Position numbers and translations under genes: made by a program
Notes under the pieces: generated by a model
The model's database searches: none
Told to the model about the DNA's origin: nothing
Seen by the model: only the letters and a program-made list of their open reading frames with translations
NCBI RefSeq assembly: GCF_002286735.1
Contig: NZ_NRTA01000035.1
Coordinates: forward strand, 1 to 45,849
Source of the DNA: Leptolyngbya sp. BC1307
GTDB taxonomy: Bacteria > Cyanobacteriota > Cyanobacteriia > Phormidesmidales > Phormidesmidaceae
Length of the DNA stretch: 45,849 nucleotides
Direction of reading: 5' to 3'
Part shown: positions 15,786 through 34,452 of the stretch, one piece after another
Position numbering within the stretch: position 1 is the first letter of the stretch
Layout of the letters: each line of letters opens with the position of its first letter

Positions 15786-15808
15786 GTCCTATGGACTGTC
15801 CTGTGGAC
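15786..15808. promoter_or_regulatory. Pair of RTCCTNWGGAC dyads upstream of sixA
   Basis: Two 11-bp dyads, GTCCTATGGAC (15786-15796) and GTCCTGTGGAC (15798-15808), lie 12 bp apart and about 80 bp before the sixA start. The same dyad family, with the same 12-bp spacing, clusters around the HTH paralogs at 33-34.4 kb. The 20-mer TGGACTGTCCTGTGGACATG is identical here and at 33002-33021. Confidence 0.5.
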
Positions 15809-22009: not shown

Positions 22010-22699
22010 TCAGTTGACTTGGAGCAGATCGGTCGGTGAGACGGTCAGCTCGGTCAGCGAAGCTGTAATTTTTACCGTTTCTGACAGCGAGACGTTCTGA
22101 CAGTCTGTCTGCGCTGGATAGGCTTTGGCAATGTATGACGCACCGACCAGGCGGTAGAATCCCTGACTGTTGGTCAGCCACTGGCTGACAACTTCACTGG
22201 GGCTATCTGTAGAGTCCTGAGGACGGTCTTGAGGCGGCAGGCTGTAGTAGATTTGGCGATCGCGTCCAAACACAGGCGAATCGAACACCTTAACAGAAAG
22301 CGTAGCCACCTTATCGGCAGACAGCCCGGTAGTCGACTGATCGGGGCCAACGTATTCAATGGCAAAGCACTGACCGGCAGCGCTGCGGTAGACCAGTCGA
22401 TAGGCATTGGGACCAGCAGCGTCGTGCTCAGCTAGCGTAAACCCATCTGGCACATAGGCCGGAGCCATCACCGGTAAGCCCTGAAGCTGGTTGAGTACCG
22501 ACGGCGGCACTTTAGCCAGGTAGGCTCCCGGTGGTGGTGGTGGCGGCATTGATAGCGGAGCGGGAGGGGCGACAGATGGCCGCTGCTCTGAGGTCGAGTT
22601 GGCCACCTCTTGGGGCTGACAGCCTGATAAATAGAAGGTAGCGAGGGCGATCGCCCCCCAGAAAATTGCGCTTGGCCTCTTGAAGTTTAGTCGCGCCAT
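22010..22699 (-). CDS. Putative lipoprotein, cyanobacterial hypothetical
   Basis: About 229 aa from ATG 22699 (MARLNFKRPSAIFWGAIALA). This start gives a proper lipoprotein signal peptide ending in the lipobox LSGC. The frame remains open to 22807, but that would put 36 residues ahead of the signal. After the Cys comes a Pro-rich linker with six consecutive prolines, then a mixed domain with paired Cys (GQCFAIEY, TDCQNVSL). No family was recognised. It is convergent with nadK, 13 bp away. Confidence 0.7.
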   Translation of the reverse strand: MARLNFKRPSAIFWGAIALATFYLSGCQPQEVANSTSEQRPSVAPPAPLSMPPPPPPGAYLAKVPPSVLNQLQGLPVMAPAYVPDGFTLAEHDAAGPNAYRLVYRSAAGQCFAIEYVGPDQSTTGLSADKVATLSVKVFDSPVFGRDRQIYYSLPPQDRPQDSTDSPSEVVSQWLTNSQGFYRLVGASYIAKAYPAQTDCQNVSLSETVKITASLTELTVSPTDLLQVN

Positions 22700-22733
22700 A
22701 GTTCTATTAATAGTTCTATTAACTGCTTTCTCA

Positions 22734-23192
22734 TCAGTAAGCCCTACCGTCTCTATGCTCAAACCGTCGCTCACCCTCGGCAGTGAGTGTAAAAACCAGA
22801 TCTTCATCAGGATACGTCGCTTGGTCGGGCTGAGTGCGATCGCCCACTTCCAAATACATCGCTGGTACAGCCGACCGATTCACTAGATGATGGCCGTTCG
22901 CCTTGCCTGCTGCAAAGCCAGCCATGTCACCCGGTTGTAACCATTGCTCGCCCTCATCGGTAATCAAGACCAGCTCGCCTTTGACGACATAGATAAACTC
23001 ATCCTGAGCAGAGTGCCAGTGCCTGAGCGCTGACTGGCTACCGGGTTCAAGCGTAGTCAGGTTCACACCAAAATTCTTCAGGCCAGCAGCCTTGCCCACG
23101 CGCTGACGAGAGCGACCAGCGACTCGGGCTCTAAAGAAGGCGGGATAGCTCGTGCCGTTTTCAATCGGAATAGACAACAGATCAATTTGCAT
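22734..23192 (-). CDS. Cupin domain protein
   Basis: A 152-aa single-domain cupin. Motif 1, RHWHSAQDEFIYVVKGELVLITD, supplies the metal ligands HxH...E, and motif 2, PGDMAGFAAGKANGHHLVN, supplies the third His. It is likely a metal-dependent small-molecule enzyme or sugar/auxin-type binding protein; the substrate is unknown. It lies upstream of the lipoprotein gene and 28 bp after the GST gene, on the same strand. Confidence 0.85.
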   Translation of the reverse strand: MQIDLLSIPIENGTSYPAFFRARVAGRSRQRVGKAAGLKNFGVNLTTLEPGSQSALRHWHSAQDEFIYVVKGELVLITDEGEQWLQPGDMAGFAAGKANGHHLVNRSAVPAMYLEVGDRTQPDQATYPDEDLVFTLTAEGERRFEHRDGRAY

Positions 23193-29346: not shown

Positions 29347-31035
29347 ATGACATCGGTAGACAAAAAAAATGGCCGCTACATGCCCCGTAGCGGCTCAATC
29401 ACTTACAGTCAAAACGACCGAATGCATCATTCCTCAAAGGATAACCCATGCCCGGTATGTGATCGCACAAAGGACGGTGACTGCTCCATCTCCCAGGATA
29501 GAGAGCTAGTCCTCTGCCATACCAACGCCAAACAGCTAGCCGTACCGACCGCCAACGGCTATCACTTCACCGGCAAGCTCTGTGACGATGGTCTACACGG
29601 CCCCGATAGCGCCGCCATCTACACCAAGTCACCCAAACAGATCTACACCCGCGCTCAGCCCTTTAAAAAGGTCAAATCACCAAAGGAAATTAAGAAAGCC
29701 GTTCAACTGTCCTCTATGGAAGTGGAGGTGGAAACCGACTATCTAGGCATGATGGTTTCAGAAGGCTCTGAGACGCTAGAGCAGGCGCAAGTCACCCTAG
29801 CCGCCTGGTGCAAAGAAAACGGCCACAGCGCTTACTCTGCCAGTCGGTTGCTAGATACCAAGGTGAAAGCCGCCCGCGAGCGACAGGGCATCCAGGGCAC
29901 CTCAGACGAAGCGCCGCGACTGGTGAGGGAATACCGGCTGATAGAGCAGCAGTTTGGCGATCGCCTGCGCCTGAATGAGCTGCTGAAGCAGGTAGAGCTA
30001 GACGGTGAGTACTTCGACCCAGCTAAGGCCAAGCTAGAAATAAACATCACTCACAGCCTTTCTATCAAGGGAGCCCGTGAGGATCTATCAGACAGCATCC
30101 TGAAGCTAGCAAAGCAAAACAGCTATAGCCCCGTTGGTGAGTACCTGAGAGCAGTTCACCAAGAGCACGGCGATAGCACAGACGTTTTGAACGGCTTTGC
30201 TCAGCGTCATCTTGGTACCTCAGAGCCGATTCACGATGCCCTACTCAAGCGCTTTCTCATCGCCGCCGTCGCCCGTGCGATCGCACCCGGCTGTAAACAC
30301 GACTGCGCCCTTATTCTGCAAGGCCCGCAGGGTTACGGTAAATCAACCTTCTTTAAGATACTGGCGTCAGAGCCCTGGTTTGATGACTCGCTAGGCTCAG
30401 CCTCTGACAAAGACGAAAAGCTGAAGCTACACCAGTTTTGGATGGTCGAGTGGGCAGAGCTGGAAAACGTATTCCGCCGCCGCGACGTGAGCCAGGTAAA
30501 GGCGTTTATGTCGTCTGCGATAGACAACCTGCGCCCGCCCTATGGTCAGTCAATGGAACGGCTGAAACGTGCCTCTGTCATCGTTGGCACCACGAACCAA
30601 GAGCAGTTCTTAGCCGATACCACCGGCAACCGTCGCTTCTGGGTAGTGCCTGTCACCCGGCCTCTCGACCTGGCAGCGCTACGAGCAGAACGCGACCGCG
30701 TTTGGGCTGCTGCTGTCACCCTCTACCAGGCTGGCGAGCAGTGGTGGTTAACCGCAGAGGAGAGCCGGGAAGTAGATGCTATGCGAGAGCAATACGAATC
30801 TGAAGACGCATGGTTTGAGCCGATCAGCGACTACGTTGATGGCCTAGAAATGGTAACGATTCAAGCAATACTAACGAGTGCAATTGATATGGAAGTAGGT
30901 AGGCGCAATTCTGGTCACTTTCGGCGCGTCGGCGATGTTTTACGAAAGCTTGGGTGGGAGAAGTTACCCAACGCAGTGGCACACAATGGGAAAAAGCAGA
31001 AAGTTTGGAAACGAAGTTTTCCCCCAAGTTGCTGA
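29347..31035 (+). CDS. VapE-type primase-helicase with N-terminal zinc finger
   Basis: A 562-aa protein. The N-terminal zinc ribbon has Cys35, Cys38, Cys46 and Cys57/His58 (CPVCDRTKDGDC...LCH), similar to phage primase zinc domains. The C-terminal virulence-associated-E (PF05272) superfamily 3 helicase domain has Walker A GPQGYGKST (326-334), Walker B FWMVEWAEL (364-372), sensor VGTTNQ (413-418) and the arginine-finger block GNRRFW (427-432). AGGGAG precedes the ATG. The middle region (about 125-255) has no recognised polymerase motif. It is likely the replication initiator of the island; an iteron block follows immediately. Confidence 0.87.
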   Translation: MTSVDKKNGRYMPRSGSITYSQNDRMHHSSKDNPCPVCDRTKDGDCSISQDRELVLCHTNAKQLAVPTANGYHFTGKLCDDGLHGPDSAAIYTKSPKQIYTRAQPFKKVKSPKEIKKAVQLSSMEVEVETDYLGMMVSEGSETLEQAQVTLAAWCKENGHSAYSASRLLDTKVKAARERQGIQGTSDEAPRLVREYRLIEQQFGDRLRLNELLKQVELDGEYFDPAKAKLEINITHSLSIKGAREDLSDSILKLAKQNSYSPVGEYLRAVHQEHGDSTDVLNGFAQRHLGTSEPIHDALLKRFLIAAVARAIAPGCKHDCALILQGPQGYGKSTFFKILASEPWFDDSLGSASDKDEKLKLHQFWMVEWAELENVFRRRDVSQVKAFMSSAIDNLRPPYGQSMERLKRASVIVGTTNQEQFLADTTGNRRFWVVPVTRPLDLAALRAERDRVWAAAVTLYQAGEQWWLTAEESREVDAMREQYESEDAWFEPISDYVDGLEMVTIQAILTSAIDMEVGRRNSGHFRRVGDVLRKLGWEKLPNAVAHNGKKQKVWKRSFPPSC

Positions 31036-31038
31036 TCT

Positions 31039-31249
31039 ATCGGTGCCATCGGTGCCAAGAATCTACACGTCAGTTATATCAATGTTTAGACCCTGGCACC
31101 GATGCGGCACCGATTGGCACCGATGGCACCGATAAAAACTTCCGTTGGCACCGATGGCACCGACGCGACCCCGATAATTTAGGCCATCGGTGCCAGCTAC
31201 AACAGTTGATGCCAAAGGGTTTCAGAGATTTTGGCACCGATACACCGAT
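31039..31249. repeat. Iteron array GGCACCGAT, putative replication origin
   Basis: The 9-mer occurs forward at 31095, 31106, 31116, 31125, 31147 and 31233, with near copies at 31156 and 31243. It occurs reversed (ATCGGTGCC) at 31039, 31048 and 31186. Spacing within the main cluster is 9-11 bp. The two reversed copies at the left and the forward cluster flank an AT-rich 38-bp segment (31057-31094). The array starts 4 bp after the primase-helicase stop, as origins do in SaPI-type satellites. Confidence 0.7.
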
Positions 31250-31344
31250 AAAAACACCCTCGTATAGAGGAAAAACGCGACCTACTGTCACACCCAACTG
31301 TCCACTGTCACACTCCAGTTACTAACAGAAACCGCCCCTAAAAG

Positions 31345-32505
31345 ATGACCAGACGAAAGCAAGCGAGAAGCAAAAAAAACACCGTCAGTATCAACGTTCG
31401 CAGCGGCATGTTATTCCTGCGTTGGCGACACATGGGCAAACGCCCTCAGCTATCGCTCGGCCTAGCTGATACCCCGCTCAACCATTACCAGGCGAGAGGC
31501 ATCGCCGCGCAGATAGAAGCCGACCTGGTAACCGGCAACTATGACCTCACCCTGGCAAAGTACCGACTAACCGACCCACCAACGCCACCCAGCGCCGCAC
31601 CGTCTTCTACTGCTGTACTATTTGAGCAGTTCACCGCCCACAAGCGCCGTGAGGGGGTCAGCGGTCAGGCGATCGCCACCAAATACAACTCGCTGCGCTC
31701 TAACATCGTTCGCCACGGCGAAGACATCACCAGCACAGAGCAGGCTTACCAGCTCGTGAAGATGCTGCGCGATCGCCAGTCACCTAAGACAGCAAATCAA
31801 AATCTTGTTCTTCTAAAAAGCTTTGGTGAGTGGCTAGTGAAGAAACAACATTTAGAAGAGAACGTCTTTGAGTCTGTTCGACCGCTGAAAAACACTAATA
31901 TCAACGTTCAAGACAGGACACCATTTACGAAAGAAGAGTTGTTATTGTTCTTAGAGACGATGCGCACTCACCCTACCGGCTACCAGTATTATGACTTCAC
32001 CGTAGTGCTTTTTTCTCTAGGTCTGAGACCATCAGAAGCTATCGGCCTACGTTGGTGTCACGTCAATTTTGACCGTAAAGAAATCGTTATCAGGGAGTCG
32101 CTGAGCCGTTCGGACGATGGCCGCTCATCTGGTGGAGCCAGACAGCGCAAAGGCACCAAGACCGGCAACGTCAGACAGCTACCGCTGAATGATCGCCTGC
32201 TGGCGCTGTTTGCAGGCAGGAAAACCGCTACGGCTAAGCCTGATGACCTCATCTTCACCACGGCCACCGGCAGGCCCATAGATGACCGCATGTATTGTCG
32301 GCGCTACTGGCGGCGCATCTGCGAAGAAGCAGGCATACCCTACCGGCCACCCTATACCGCCCGTCATACATTCATCAGCTACGGTATCGAGTACGAACGG
32401 TGGAGCCCTCACCAAGCCGCGTCAATGGCAGGGCACAGCAGCACGCGCATGATATCCGAGGTCTACGGTCACATGATGGACAGACCAAAGCTACCCGACT
32501 TTTAG
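31345..32505 (+). CDS. Tyrosine site-specific integrase
   Basis: A 386-aa phage-type integrase. An arm-binding N-terminal domain (about 10-75) and a SAM-like core-binding domain (about 88-185) precede the catalytic domain. Catalytic residues are Arg228 (GLRPSEAIGL), Lys272 (GTKTGN), Arg340 (YTARHTF; the first HxxR position is Tyr337 instead of His), His364 (MAGHSS) and nucleophile Tyr374 (SEVYGHM). It lies 118 bp from the right att core inside tRNA-Pro, the usual place for an island integrase. Confidence 0.95.
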   Translation: MTRRKQARSKKNTVSINVRSGMLFLRWRHMGKRPQLSLGLADTPLNHYQARGIAAQIEADLVTGNYDLTLAKYRLTDPPTPPSAAPSSTAVLFEQFTAHKRREGVSGQAIATKYNSLRSNIVRHGEDITSTEQAYQLVKMLRDRQSPKTANQNLVLLKSFGEWLVKKQHLEENVFESVRPLKNTNINVQDRTPFTKEELLLFLETMRTHPTGYQYYDFTVVLFSLGLRPSEAIGLRWCHVNFDRKEIVIRESLSRSDDGRSSGGARQRKGTKTGNVRQLPLNDRLLALFAGRKTATAKPDDLIFTTATGRPIDDRMYCRRYWRRICEEAGIPYRPPYTARHTFISYGIEYERWSPHQAASMAGHSSTRMISEVYGHMMDRPKLPDF

Positions 32506-32622: not shown

Positions 32623-32671
32623 ATCGGAGCGACAGGATTTGAACCTGCGACCCCTACTACCCCAAAGTAGT
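32623..32671 (-). repeat. Right attachment site (49-bp core)
   Basis: Exact direct repeat of 26366-26414. It covers the 3' part of the intact tRNA-Pro up to the base before the anticodon stem. Confidence 0.95.
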
Positions 32672-32697
32672 GCGCTACCAAGCTGCGCTACGCCCCG
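32624..32697 (-). tRNA. tRNA-Pro(GGG)
   Basis: A 74-nt tRNA. The acceptor CGGGGCG pairs with CGCTCCG (one G-T), discriminator A. The D arm is GCGCAGCTTGGTAGCGC, the anticodon stem CTACT/AGTAG with loop TTGGGGT (anticodon GGG), and the T loop GGTTCAAATCC. CCA is not encoded. The gene remains intact because the island core restores its 3' part. Confidence 0.97.
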
Positions 32698-32809
32698 AAG
32701 CGTTTATTTGCCTATCAAGAATAGCATAAACTCTGAGGCGGTTTAGGGGCTAACTTTTGGGGTTGGGGCTGAGGCGATCGCCGCCCACTTCACAACAGAC
32801 CCCCTGACT

Positions 32810-33018
32810 GTCCTACACATTGTCCTGAGAATATTTCATCCTATGACTGACTGAACTATTTGAGCCTGACTGATTTAGCTTGTTCAATTTAAGCAGTAGA
32901 ACCCACTGAAAGACCCAGCCTATCGGCTTTTCCCAAGGCATACTTATAAACGGCTACTCATCCAAAGGACAGTCCTTAGGACTTTTATGAGGATTACTTG
33001 GTGGACTGTCCTGTGGAC
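32810..33018. promoter_or_regulatory. Cluster of RTCCTNWGGAC dyads upstream of tRNA-Pro
   Basis: Sites: GTCCT half-sites at 32810 and 32822 (12 bp apart); ATCCAAAGGAC (32960-32970) next to the perfect GTCCTTAGGAC (32972-32982), again 12 bp apart; and GTCCTGTGGAC (33008-33018), preceded 12 bp upstream by a TGGAC half-site. The remaining sequence between 32698 and 33021 shows no gene. Confidence 0.45.
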
Positions 33019-33021
33019 ATG

Positions 33022-33219
33022 CTATAGTTTATTCAGAGAAAGGCTTGAGGGTTTAGGGGGAACGGCTTCCACTGGTAGGTAAAGCTCCCGCTGGCGTACC
33101 GCTGCCAGAATGACTAAAAGCCCGCCACTGTCGCCCTGAGCGCGGCTGCCTTTAAAATGGCAAAGTGGTGCCAGTGCTAACATCAGCATCACTGCCAACA
33201 TCACCACCGACACCACCAT
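33022..33219 (-). CDS. Possible small membrane protein
   Basis: An open frame from ATG 33219 (MVVSVVMLAVMLMLALAPLC) to the stop at 33022, about 65 aa, with one strong hydrophobic N-terminal segment. The frame stays open to a TTG at 33282. It follows the 193-aa HTH gene on the same strand and could be cotranscribed. No homolog is recalled, and the repetitive CACCACCGACACC composition warns that it may be chance. Confidence 0.25.
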   Translation of the reverse strand: MVVSVVMLAVMLMLALAPLCHFKGSRAQGDSGGLLVILAAVRQRELYLPVEAVPPKPSSLSLNKL

Positions 33220-33246
33220 GACCAAAACCACCGACACCCACTGATA

Positions 33247-33262
33247 GATATCAGCTGATATC
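33247..33262. repeat. Perfect 16-bp palindrome
   Basis: GATATCAGCTGATATC, between the 193-aa HTH gene and the possible small membrane ORF. It may be a protein-binding site. Confidence 0.45.
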
Positions 33263-33326
33263 AAACGGTTACACAAACACAAAACACACTTTCAGAGCTG
33301 GCAGAAATGTCAGCTCTTTTTTTATA

Positions 33327-33908
33327 TTAGCGCTTCGAGACCAACCAGGCTACTTCTCCGCCTGAGCGATAGCCCGCCCGGTTGAAGACAAATCCGGCTT
33401 CGTAAAAGGTTTGCCCGTAGCGATTAATATCGTCTGGGTCGAGATCTAAGAGGTCGGCTAGTTCCGAGGTGCGAAGCTTCCAGCCTCTGCTAGCGGCTTT
33501 TTCGAGCGATTCGTAATAGGCTAGGGGGTCGGCGACAGGCCGGATTTTAGAGGCCATTTCACTGGCGAACGCGCTGATTAGCTTCAGCATATCTGCCTGC
33601 GATAAGGACACTCCTGTGGTTAGTTCTGAGGACGATTCAGCGGACTGGCCGTTGAGGTCGGCGGCTTGATTGCCGGCCGATCCGAGTCCTTTGCGGGCAA
33701 TAAATTCGGCCACGTTGCCGCCGACTTGAATAAAGTCGTGCAGTTCATCGAGCAGGGCAATTTGCTGCGCGTTGACATAGGCCCGGTTGCCAATCTTCTC
33801 CCGCTCAATACCGAGGTCAGACATGCGCTTATAGACCGCGCTTCTAGCTAGTTTGTAGCGAGCGATCAGCTGATTGACCGGGATGCGATCAATGTTTCCT
33901 TTAGCCAT
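33327..33908 (-). CDS. HTH DNA-binding protein, long paralog
   Basis: A 193-aa protein. The N-terminal helix-turn-helix reads IPVNQLIARYKLARSAVYKR then MSDLGIEREKIGNRAYV (about 8-45). QQIALLDELHDFIQVGGN follows, with a Ser-rich linker (about 78-100) and a C-terminal domain (RTSELADLLDLDPDDINRYG) that looks like a second helical module. It is paralogous over its first 75 residues to the 122-aa protein at 34018-34386. A single dyad and a 12-bp-spaced pair of RTCCTNWGGAC-like dyads lie just upstream (33924-33967). Autoregulation is inferred; the family is not one I can name. Confidence 0.7.
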   Translation of the reverse strand: MAKGNIDRIPVNQLIARYKLARSAVYKRMSDLGIEREKIGNRAYVNAQQIALLDELHDFIQVGGNVAEFIARKGLGSAGNQAADLNGQSAESSSELTTGVSLSQADMLKLISAFASEMASKIRPVADPLAYYESLEKAASRGWKLRTSELADLLDLDPDDINRYGQTFYEAGFVFNRAGYRSGGEVAWLVSKR

Positions 33909-33923
33909 ACCCCTTCTCTACCC

Positions 33924-33967
33924 GTCCTCAGGAATCTCTATATTATCCTTCAGACTATCCTCAGGAC
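33924..33967. promoter_or_regulatory. RTCCTNWGGAC dyads upstream of the 193-aa HTH gene
   Basis: GTCCTCAGGAA (33924-33934), ATCCTTCAGAC (33945-33955) and ATCCTCAGGAC (33957-33967). The last two are 12 bp apart. They sit 16-59 bp upstream of the start codon at 33908, in promoter position. Confidence 0.55.
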
Positions 33968-34017
33968 CGGTGAGTCTTTAACGCATCAAGATAAAGTTAC
34001 ACTGCGTGCCCCGTGCT

Positions 34018-34386
34018 TTAGCTGCCTTTTCTAAATATGGCAACGATCTCAGCGATGATGGCTCTGGCTAATTTCCATAAATCTGTCTGGCTCAAGACGA
34101 GCCCTGAGGATAGCTCTACAGACTGGTCAGCAGCTCCGGTTGTGGCCGGGTTGGCAAGATTAAGTTTCCTATTTACTAAGAATTCAGCAGTATTGCCGCC
34201 TTGCTTTATATGTTCATGCAGCTCATCTAAGAGGGCTACCTGGTCGGCAGCAATATAGGCACGATTGCCCAGCTTTTGCCGCTTTATGCCGAGATCGGCC
34301 ATGCGTTTGTAAACTGCCGACTTGCTCAACCCGTAGCGAGTAAAAAGTTGAGTAACGGGAATTTGACTACCCTCTTCATCGCTCAT
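34018..34386 (-). CDS. HTH DNA-binding protein, short paralog
   Basis: A 122-aa protein. The HTH region IPVTQLFTRYGLSKSAVYKR then MADLGIKRQKLGNRAYIAAD and LLDELHEHIKQGGNTAEFL closely matches the 193-aa neighbour. The C-terminal domain of the longer protein is absent, and a Leu-rich segment (LSQTDLWKLARAIIAEIVAI) ends it. Dyads at 34392-34414 lie directly upstream, 6 bp from the start codon, overlapping the ribosome-binding or promoter region. The pair arose by duplication; the family is not known to me. Confidence 0.7.
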   Translation of the reverse strand: MSDEEGSQIPVTQLFTRYGLSKSAVYKRMADLGIKRQKLGNRAYIAADQVALLDELHEHIKQGGNTAEFLVNRKLNLANPATTGAADQSVELSSGLVLSQTDLWKLARAIIAEIVAIFRKGS

Positions 34387-34391
34387 GTACT

Positions 34392-34452
34392 ATCCTCCAG
34401 ACCATCCTTAGGACTAATACATTTATACTATATTAAAGACAGTCCTCAGGAC
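34392..34452. promoter_or_regulatory. RTCCTNWGGAC dyads upstream of the 122-aa HTH gene
   Basis: ATCCTCCAGAC (34392-34402) and ATCCTTAGGAC (34404-34414) are 12 bp apart. The perfect GTCCTCAGGAC (34442-34452) lies further up, next to the htrA stop. Confidence 0.55.

Follow-up and report, generated by a model that had tools for sequence, protein, structure and literature searches.

RacA and pSK1 Par are chromosome- or plasmid-anchoring proteins, and their structures (PDB 5i44 and 8csh) are among the best matches to the N-terminal domain of a helix-turn-helix (HTH) protein encoded at the cyanobacterial locus described here. Unlike these two, the present protein carries a second winged-helix-like domain and has an RNA partner. 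The MerR-family activators SoxR, MtaN and BmrR share its winged-helix fold (Z 7.4-8.5), and a possible further likeness to them is a dyad that, read by eye in some copies of the locus, may lie within a 19-bp spacer between the -35 and -10 elements. Classical MerR activators possess a long dimerisation helix and a ligand domain, neither of which is seen in the model of the present protein. BldC, a small MerR-like protein, acts on adjacent sites and binds direct repeats; its structure (PDB 6ama) is a weak match (Z 3.8) to the C-terminal domain of the present protein.

Within the cyanobacteria, CvkR is the MerR-type repressor of a type V-K CAST in Anabaena 7120 (PMC9938897). CvkR resembles our protein in being cyanobacterial, in its N-terminal winged helix and its palindromic operator, and it affects, indirectly, a structured RNA of its own locus, the tracr-CRISPR RNA (PMC9938897). 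It differs in its motif (AnnACATnATGTnnT), in its length of 150 aa, in belonging to a transposon, and in having a dimerisation domain and a C-terminal helix in place of the second winged helix found here (PMC9938897). A regulator that controls a neighbouring RNA is a known kind of system; a description of the present RNA or protein family was not found in the sources searched, and the titles and abstract openings of the literature on CvkR, RacA/pSK1, cyanobacterial structured RNAs and the motif GTCCTNAGGAC held no description of the module.

Here, we analysed a window of 45,849 nucleotides from Leptolyngbya sp. BC1307, by which we mean the whole stretch of DNA, contig C35 of a 4.9-Mb genome. 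Our main reading, to which we give a probability of about 0.78, is that it contains an autoregulated single-locus module, made up of a regulator with a winged-helix and a second, winged-helix-like domain and a structured RNA as its main output.

Dyad sites and their 12-bp register

An earlier reading of the window based on its letters (the sequence-only reading) had listed RTCCTNWGGAC dyads and four pairs of them at 12-bp spacing. When the window sequence was re-read, all of these coordinates and all four pairs proved correct. Both members of the pair 15786/15798 are exact; in the remaining pairs the second member is exact (32972, 33957 and 34404) and the first carries one mismatch (32960) or two, counted by hand (33945, ATCCTTCAGAC; 34392, ATCCTCCAGAC). 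The single copies at 33008 and 34442 are likewise exact, and the one at 33924 has one mismatch. With up to one mismatch allowed, we observed 27 strand-matches in the window vs 7.24 +/- 3.24 in shuffled sequences, whose maximum was 16; the observed number was reached by 0 of 100 shuffles. Copies absent from the sequence-only reading were found at 22214 (exact), 33623 and 34101 (both within genes).

The dyads, given here without strand, are concentrated around the two HTH genes and an RNA gene. Upstream of the RNA gene, ATCCAAAGGAC (32960..32970) and GTCCTTAGGAC (32972..32982) form a 12-bp pair, and GTCCTGTGGAC (33008..33018), the promoter-proximal site of this gene, lies 36 bp, or three registers, from 32972. 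The promoter of HTH gene 1 contains GTCCTCAGGAA (33924..33934) and the upstream pair 33945..33967, while the pair 34392..34414 directly precedes HTH gene 2, which has GTCCTCAGGAC (34442..34452) as a further upstream site; two pairs thus stand upstream of paralogous HTH genes, as had been proposed. Dyad-like copies also occur inside HTH gene 1 (33623..33633; relatives have in-gene copies too) and, with one mismatch, inside HTH gene 2 (34101..34111). There are two outlying places: the pair 15786..15808, between a DHH gene and sixA and outside the conserved core, and a dyad with a degenerate partner at 22214..22236, inside ORF 22010-22807, which is a relic or chance. The register extends to relatives, where 131 successive distances of 12 bp occur among 353 sites (up to two mismatches) at 38 loci, with none across 20 block shuffles.

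The HTH proteins

HTH gene 1 (33327..33908, minus strand), delineated by ORF call, structure models and fold comparison, encodes 193 aa. HTH gene 2 (34018..34386, minus strand; ORF call) encodes a 122-aa paralogue that lacks the C-terminal domain and is 54% identical to the gene 1 product over 111 residues. In the model of HTH protein 1, an N-terminal MerR-like winged helix (residues ~6-75, pLDDT about 80) is followed by a disordered linker and a C-terminal winged-helix-like domain (~128-192). The N-terminal domain aligns with RacA at Z 9.5 (67 aligned, rmsd 2.3), with SoxR and MtaN at Z 8.5 each, and with the pSK1 Par DNA-binding domain at Z 8.2 (53 aligned, rmsd 1.1), so that these four are nearly tied; as modelled, the domain is a MerR-like winged-helix fold, although Foldseek itself returned no match at E<=0.001. 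When the C-terminal domain was compared separately with the PDB, no structure matched it clearly (best Z 4.4).

Profile and sequence searches gave the family no name. There was no match in Pfam, to MerR models or among PDB sequences at E<=1, none that was meaningful in NCBIfam, none at E<=0.1 for five proteins against the PADLOC-DB profiles, and only matches of E>=0.016 in PHROGs. Two of five relatives showed weak, sub-threshold helix-turn-helix matches.

A structured RNA gene convergent to HTH gene 1

The RNA gene is unannotated, was overlooked in the sequence-only reading and runs towards HTH gene 1. An alignment of 11 relatives' loci shows a strongly conserved stretch between the HTH stop codon and the downstream dyads, with the RNA gene on the other strand. 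In the window it spans 33035..33325 on the plus strand, with approximate ends, as defined by a covariance-model match, covariation and a terminator. The model, built from 18 copies, matches 33030-33193 with 137.6 bits, the window copy being part of the training set. Run on 40 sources, it scores above 100 bits 32 times, in 31 of them; many of these matches are training sequences or near copies, and some are two records of one locus. The RNA match at locus L111 belongs to Nodosilinea nodulosa PCC 7104.

Covariation was assessed over 32 distinct copies and the 25 base pairs of helices P1-P5. Standard pairs occupy 98.7% of the cells, and two-sided compensatory changes are present in 13 of the 25 pairs, a level that 0 of 500 shuffles attained. 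Slid versions of the structure were 29-57% paired, a comparison that favours the unslid structure because the helices were predicted on the same sequences. One of the P5 pairs does not form in 7 of the 32 copies. RNAalifold, run on a first set of 23, agrees on P1-P4, finds compensatory changes in 7 of its 32 predicted pairs, and predicts a 3' hairpin in place of P5. This alternative hairpin, weakly supported, stands outside our claim, as does a pseudoknot CACUGG/CCAGUG, which hardly varies and is therefore uninformative. Single-sequence stability gave z values of -2.57, -2.74, -1.78 and -0.62; the window copy, at 0.02, is no more stable than its shuffles.

An intrinsic terminator was found in 32 of 32 copies (one stem mismatch allowed), at 33295..33324 on the plus strand in the window. 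The estimated RNA length is 192-368 nt (median 218), and about 290 nt in the window. Rfam 15, scanned with two copies (the window region and one relative), returned no family at gathering score; the best overlapping match was sroB with 29.7 bits vs a gathering score of 44 (E 0.63). We also considered an RNA antisense to the start of the HTH mRNA and rejected it, the signal across 14 loci being inconsistent (z -2.04 to +1.03).

Paired sites in both promoters

The dyads at 32960-33018 are positioned in the RNA promoter. The extended -10, TGCTATAGT (33020..33028, plus strand), lies 1 nt after the dyad 33008-33018, and a possible -35, TTGGTG (32998..33003, plus strand; inferred by eye), lies 19 bp before the -10, with the dyad inside the spacer. 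By eye, a dyad may be placed in such a spacer in G054 and G056 as well; many copies have tandem dyads and no visible -35. For comparison across relatives, RNA copies were chosen by the RNA-core pattern, with the promoter left out of the selection. In 30 of the 32 copies the dyad ends exactly 1 nt before the extended -10 TGnTAnnnT, and in L098 the gap is 13 nt (1+12), one register more. A dyad is found within 105 bp upstream in 31 of the 32, with a 12-bp partner in 26 (up to two mismatches each); in L130 this 105-bp stretch is free of dyads and they lie farther upstream. At this last locus (G073), many dyads are spread over about 1.8 kb (360-2200) around the HTH-RNA locus, and roughly 110 nt separate a dyad-linked promoter-like stretch from the RNA core.

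The HTH promoters carry the same signature. A 12-bp pair (one member with up to two, the other with up to three mismatches) occurs in 26 of 26 promoters, which represent 25 loci, all with RNA, the window being counted for both paralogues. The pairs lie mostly just before the start codon, and 13 of the 26 promoters have two of them. At least one site (up to one mismatch) was also present at 28 of 29 homologue loci fetched by protein alone. These pairs fit self-control by the protein and, at the level of sequence, support the self-regulation through paired sites that had been suggested.

Because the same paired sites are found in both promoters, the protein probably controls both itself and the RNA. 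In the mechanism we propose, dimers of the HTH protein would occupy adjacent 11-bp dyads spaced 12 bp, presumably in a cooperative manner, and would bind both the promoter of the HTH gene itself and that of the RNA. In the latter, the proximal dyad lies right against the extended -10, so the bound protein would either block RNA polymerase or, MerR-like, help it to start, and regulation of either sign is conceivable. The main conserved output would be an RNA of roughly 190-370 nt, normally encoded convergent to the HTH gene, that may act in trans.

Spread of the sites across the genome and the family

Genome-wide, RTCCTNWGGAC has 23 strand-matches, vs 12 for a reversed-pattern control. Of 20 distinct places in the genome, 8 fall in the 46-kb window vs 0.19 expected (binomial P about 6.5e-12, which serves as a guide only since paired sites are not independent). 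Five of the 12 places beyond the window are on contig C16, and four of these five belong to one 16-bp tandem repeat. This repeat (C16:36890-36948; L024 6880-6965) consists of four copies with TCCTAAGGA and is unrelated to the 12-bp pairs. The full pair pattern at up to three mismatches gave 13 strand-hits, 11 of them on the window contig (reversed control, 8); the two off-contig matches have three mismatches each. A looser core pair pattern at up to two mismatches found three off-contig places, all at two mismatches, two of them overlapping at C16:8180-8212 and one at C26:45940 (control, 7 strand-hits).

Across the family, the core pair pattern (up to one mismatch) occurs in 31 of 63 genomes and its control in 1. 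Of these 31, 26 are the RNA-bearing genomes, three others (G042, G052 and G055) have a close HTH homologue, and two (G009 and G049) have no HTH match. Among the matches listed, the pairs lie mostly near an HTH homologue, at one locus per genome, the exceptions being G012:C267, G027:C147, G055:C1:571352 and the HTH-less genomes G009 and G049. Within the genus of the window, extra pairs are found on the module contig within about 25 kb in G055 and G056 and, at two mismatches, in G052 and G054; G057 has its extra pair on a contig other than that of the module. The same 194-aa ORF, which by reading we take to be thioredoxin-like, holds a dyad pair in G055 and G057 (L215 3545, L216 3669).

At E<=1e-20, sixA was found in two of seven genus members. 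The other sixA-bearing genome, G053, has no HTH match, and no 12-bp pair was seen in its stretch upstream of citrate synthase, which includes sixA; the same result was obtained for the citrate synthase upstream stretch in G052, G054, G055 and G057. In G056, a degenerate pair lies at the same place as in the window, downstream of the DHH gene, and the genome has no sixA match, so the target, if functional, need not be sixA.

Distribution and history of the module

The RNA was found in 26 of 63 family genomes, and in 26 of these 26 an HTH match lies on the same contig, pointing to co-inheritance of protein and RNA; the HTH match of G059 is weak (E 2.1e-4), and the strict filters may miss weak RNA matches. 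In the phylum, 5 of 386 genomes gave RNA matches: the window's own, G061 of the same family, G073 and G122 of other families, and G095. In G073 and G122 the RNA stands beside an HTH gene and dyads. The G095 match (E 0.007, 70 nt), in a stretch without clear dyads and a genome without an HTH match, was judged to be chance. The HTH protein is more widespread than the RNA (30 of 386 phylum genomes at E<=1e-10), and its named relatives at 35 loci, all in cyanobacterial records, include Phormidesmis, Leptolyngbya, Nodosilinea, Elainella, Vasconcelosia and Thermosynechococcaceae.

In a tree of 45 homologues (row L128 left out), the RNA-linked HTH proteins fall into one clade (100/97), which also holds the RNA-less L074 (G055) and L094. 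The RNA label must change three times on this tree, and a single gain with two losses may account for this. Thirteen of the 39 HTH-bearing family genomes have no RNA match; 10 of the 13 have distant homologues only, and the gene of G042 sits at the end of its contig. In G055 and G052 the HTH gene persists without the RNA, which suggests that the protein serves, or once served, a function separate from that RNA; by reading, a degenerate promoter and the apparent start of the RNA remain in G055. The linkage outlasts rearrangement, as the HTH gene and the RNA are divergent in G062. At L055 (G011) and L081 (G012), two HTH genes and two RNA matches (one partial in G012) occur together at one locus, which shows that duplication of the module is possible.

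Nine RNA-less genomes of one genus-level group all carry the neighbouring PLD gene (9 of 9), with no HTH gene within the 1.5-kb flanks; in five of the nine, distant HTH homologues occur at other places. At L204 the flanking genes are kept and the module is absent. L205 and L207 likewise lack the module and have retained dyads that resemble those preceding the HTH gene, suggesting that it was lost by deletion. On the RNA side, the neighbouring genes vary from strain to strain. From these comparisons, we read the history of the module as inheritance with repeated loss.

The plasmid records with a homologue of the protein number 41, of which some duplicate a single plasmid, and they include pSYSM of Synechocystis 6803. 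The RNA had no blastn match in the plasmid collection, and in two related Nostocales plasmids the HTH gene is conserved and its flanks are not. No phage or viral copies of the protein or the RNA were found. On plasmid pSYN6312.01 of Synechococcus PCC 6312 (L145), TCATTGAT-like repeats lie before the HTH gene and in the following intergenic regions, which suggests, from the sequence, an operator used more than once on that plasmid. In the Thermosynechococcaceae, the stretch before the start of some homologues holds tandem GTTC-N3-GAAC dyads with a spacing of 11 bp. The signal is clear in L125 and L126, which score 16 at this spacing against a maximum of 12 in shuffles; it is weaker in L122-L124, which reach only 12 there, with other spacings equally high in two of them. 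Specificity and register therefore appear to diverge. By this crude scoring of 11 distant homologues, six on plasmids had no 12-bp pair above the shuffled maximum, and a 12-bp register general to distant homologues was rejected.

A VapE-like gene and a tyrosine integrase gene (29347-32505) lie directly 3' of tRNA-Pro (32623-32698, minus strand), looking like a separate integrative element. In G057 (L073) this gene pair occurs at the same tRNA; in G054 and G056 the genes called at that tRNA do not include it.

Alternative explanations

Several other accounts of the locus were weighed. It could be a plasmid-derived maintenance or partition module that is now chromosomal, with centromere- or iteron-like dyads, a protein that binds the centromere or regulates replication, and an RNA for copy number or stability. 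We regard this as unlikely. The many plasmid homologues, one of which, among ten opened, adjoins parA-parB, the resemblance of the N-terminal domain to RacA and pSK1 Par, and the clustering of the pairs at one locus per genome among the matches listed are what it has in its favour; yet the scores of MerR regulators differ from that of RacA by no more than about 1 Z, no motor ATPase was seen among the few annotated chromosomal neighbours, the plasmid search did not recover the RNA, the Nostocales plasmids keep the HTH gene alone, and the module is missing from some close relatives. A mobile element, with the dyads as transposase or recombinase sites at the ends of a small insertion, has in its favour that module-less sites exist and that the window has an integrase gene no farther away than 0.5-0.8 kb. 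Such an origin is nevertheless highly improbable, as the module-less sites L205 and L207 retain the HTH-promoter-like dyad stretch, neither target duplication nor terminal repeats were seen by eye, and the gene calls at the tRNA-Pro locus of G054 and G056 do not include the integrase cluster.

The sequence-only reading had favoured a controller of many chromosomal targets, sixA among them. The scans do not bear this out: full-pair matches with up to two mismatches are confined to the window contig, family-wide most pairs among the matches listed lie at the module locus, and the citrate synthase upstream stretch lacks a pair in the five genomes compared. A regulon would be favoured by the outlying pair at 15786, by its degenerate counterpart in G056 and by the additional pairs elsewhere in the genus, of which G055 and G057 have one within the same ORF. 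Overall it is improbable, and we rejected a regulon or sixA as the main role on the pair-pattern scans, the sixA search and the citrate synthase comparison. Neither are the sites an evenly dispersed repeat devoid of promoter enrichment. We initially suspected that the RNA is instead a messenger with a structured leader, encoding a short peptide (NTG-CCA-GTG...), since (A/G)TGCC stands at the corresponding place in 32 of 32 aligned copies and the 28 copies that fit the search pattern translate as MP- followed by varied residues. The stop, however, is not conserved and some frames continue beyond the terminator, and the reading-frame test went against a peptide: over the first nine codons of 17 distinct sequences, synonymous changes are fewest in the candidate frame (66 of 485 changed codons), and its substitution score is also lower than those of the other two. 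A coding role is accordingly very doubtful.

Significance

The proposed autoregulated module adds to known systems a structured RNA without an Rfam family match and with support from covariation, a regulator family that is unnamed in Pfam, NCBIfam and PADLOC, and a promoter grammar that joins the two. As a tentative extension, which we think probably goes too far, the structured RNA may be the effector or ligand of its dedicated two-winged-helix regulator, and would then represent a new class of RNA-protein module in which RNA accumulation feeds back on assembly of the protein along the 12-bp dyad arrays; this switch would descend from regulators of cyanobacterial plasmids and would have been retained on chromosomes. 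As the module is one locus and is missing in some close relatives, the function of the RNA is testable by deletion and comparison. It also offers a first handle on a protein family of cyanobacterial plasmids, that of pSYSM in Synechocystis 6803 included.
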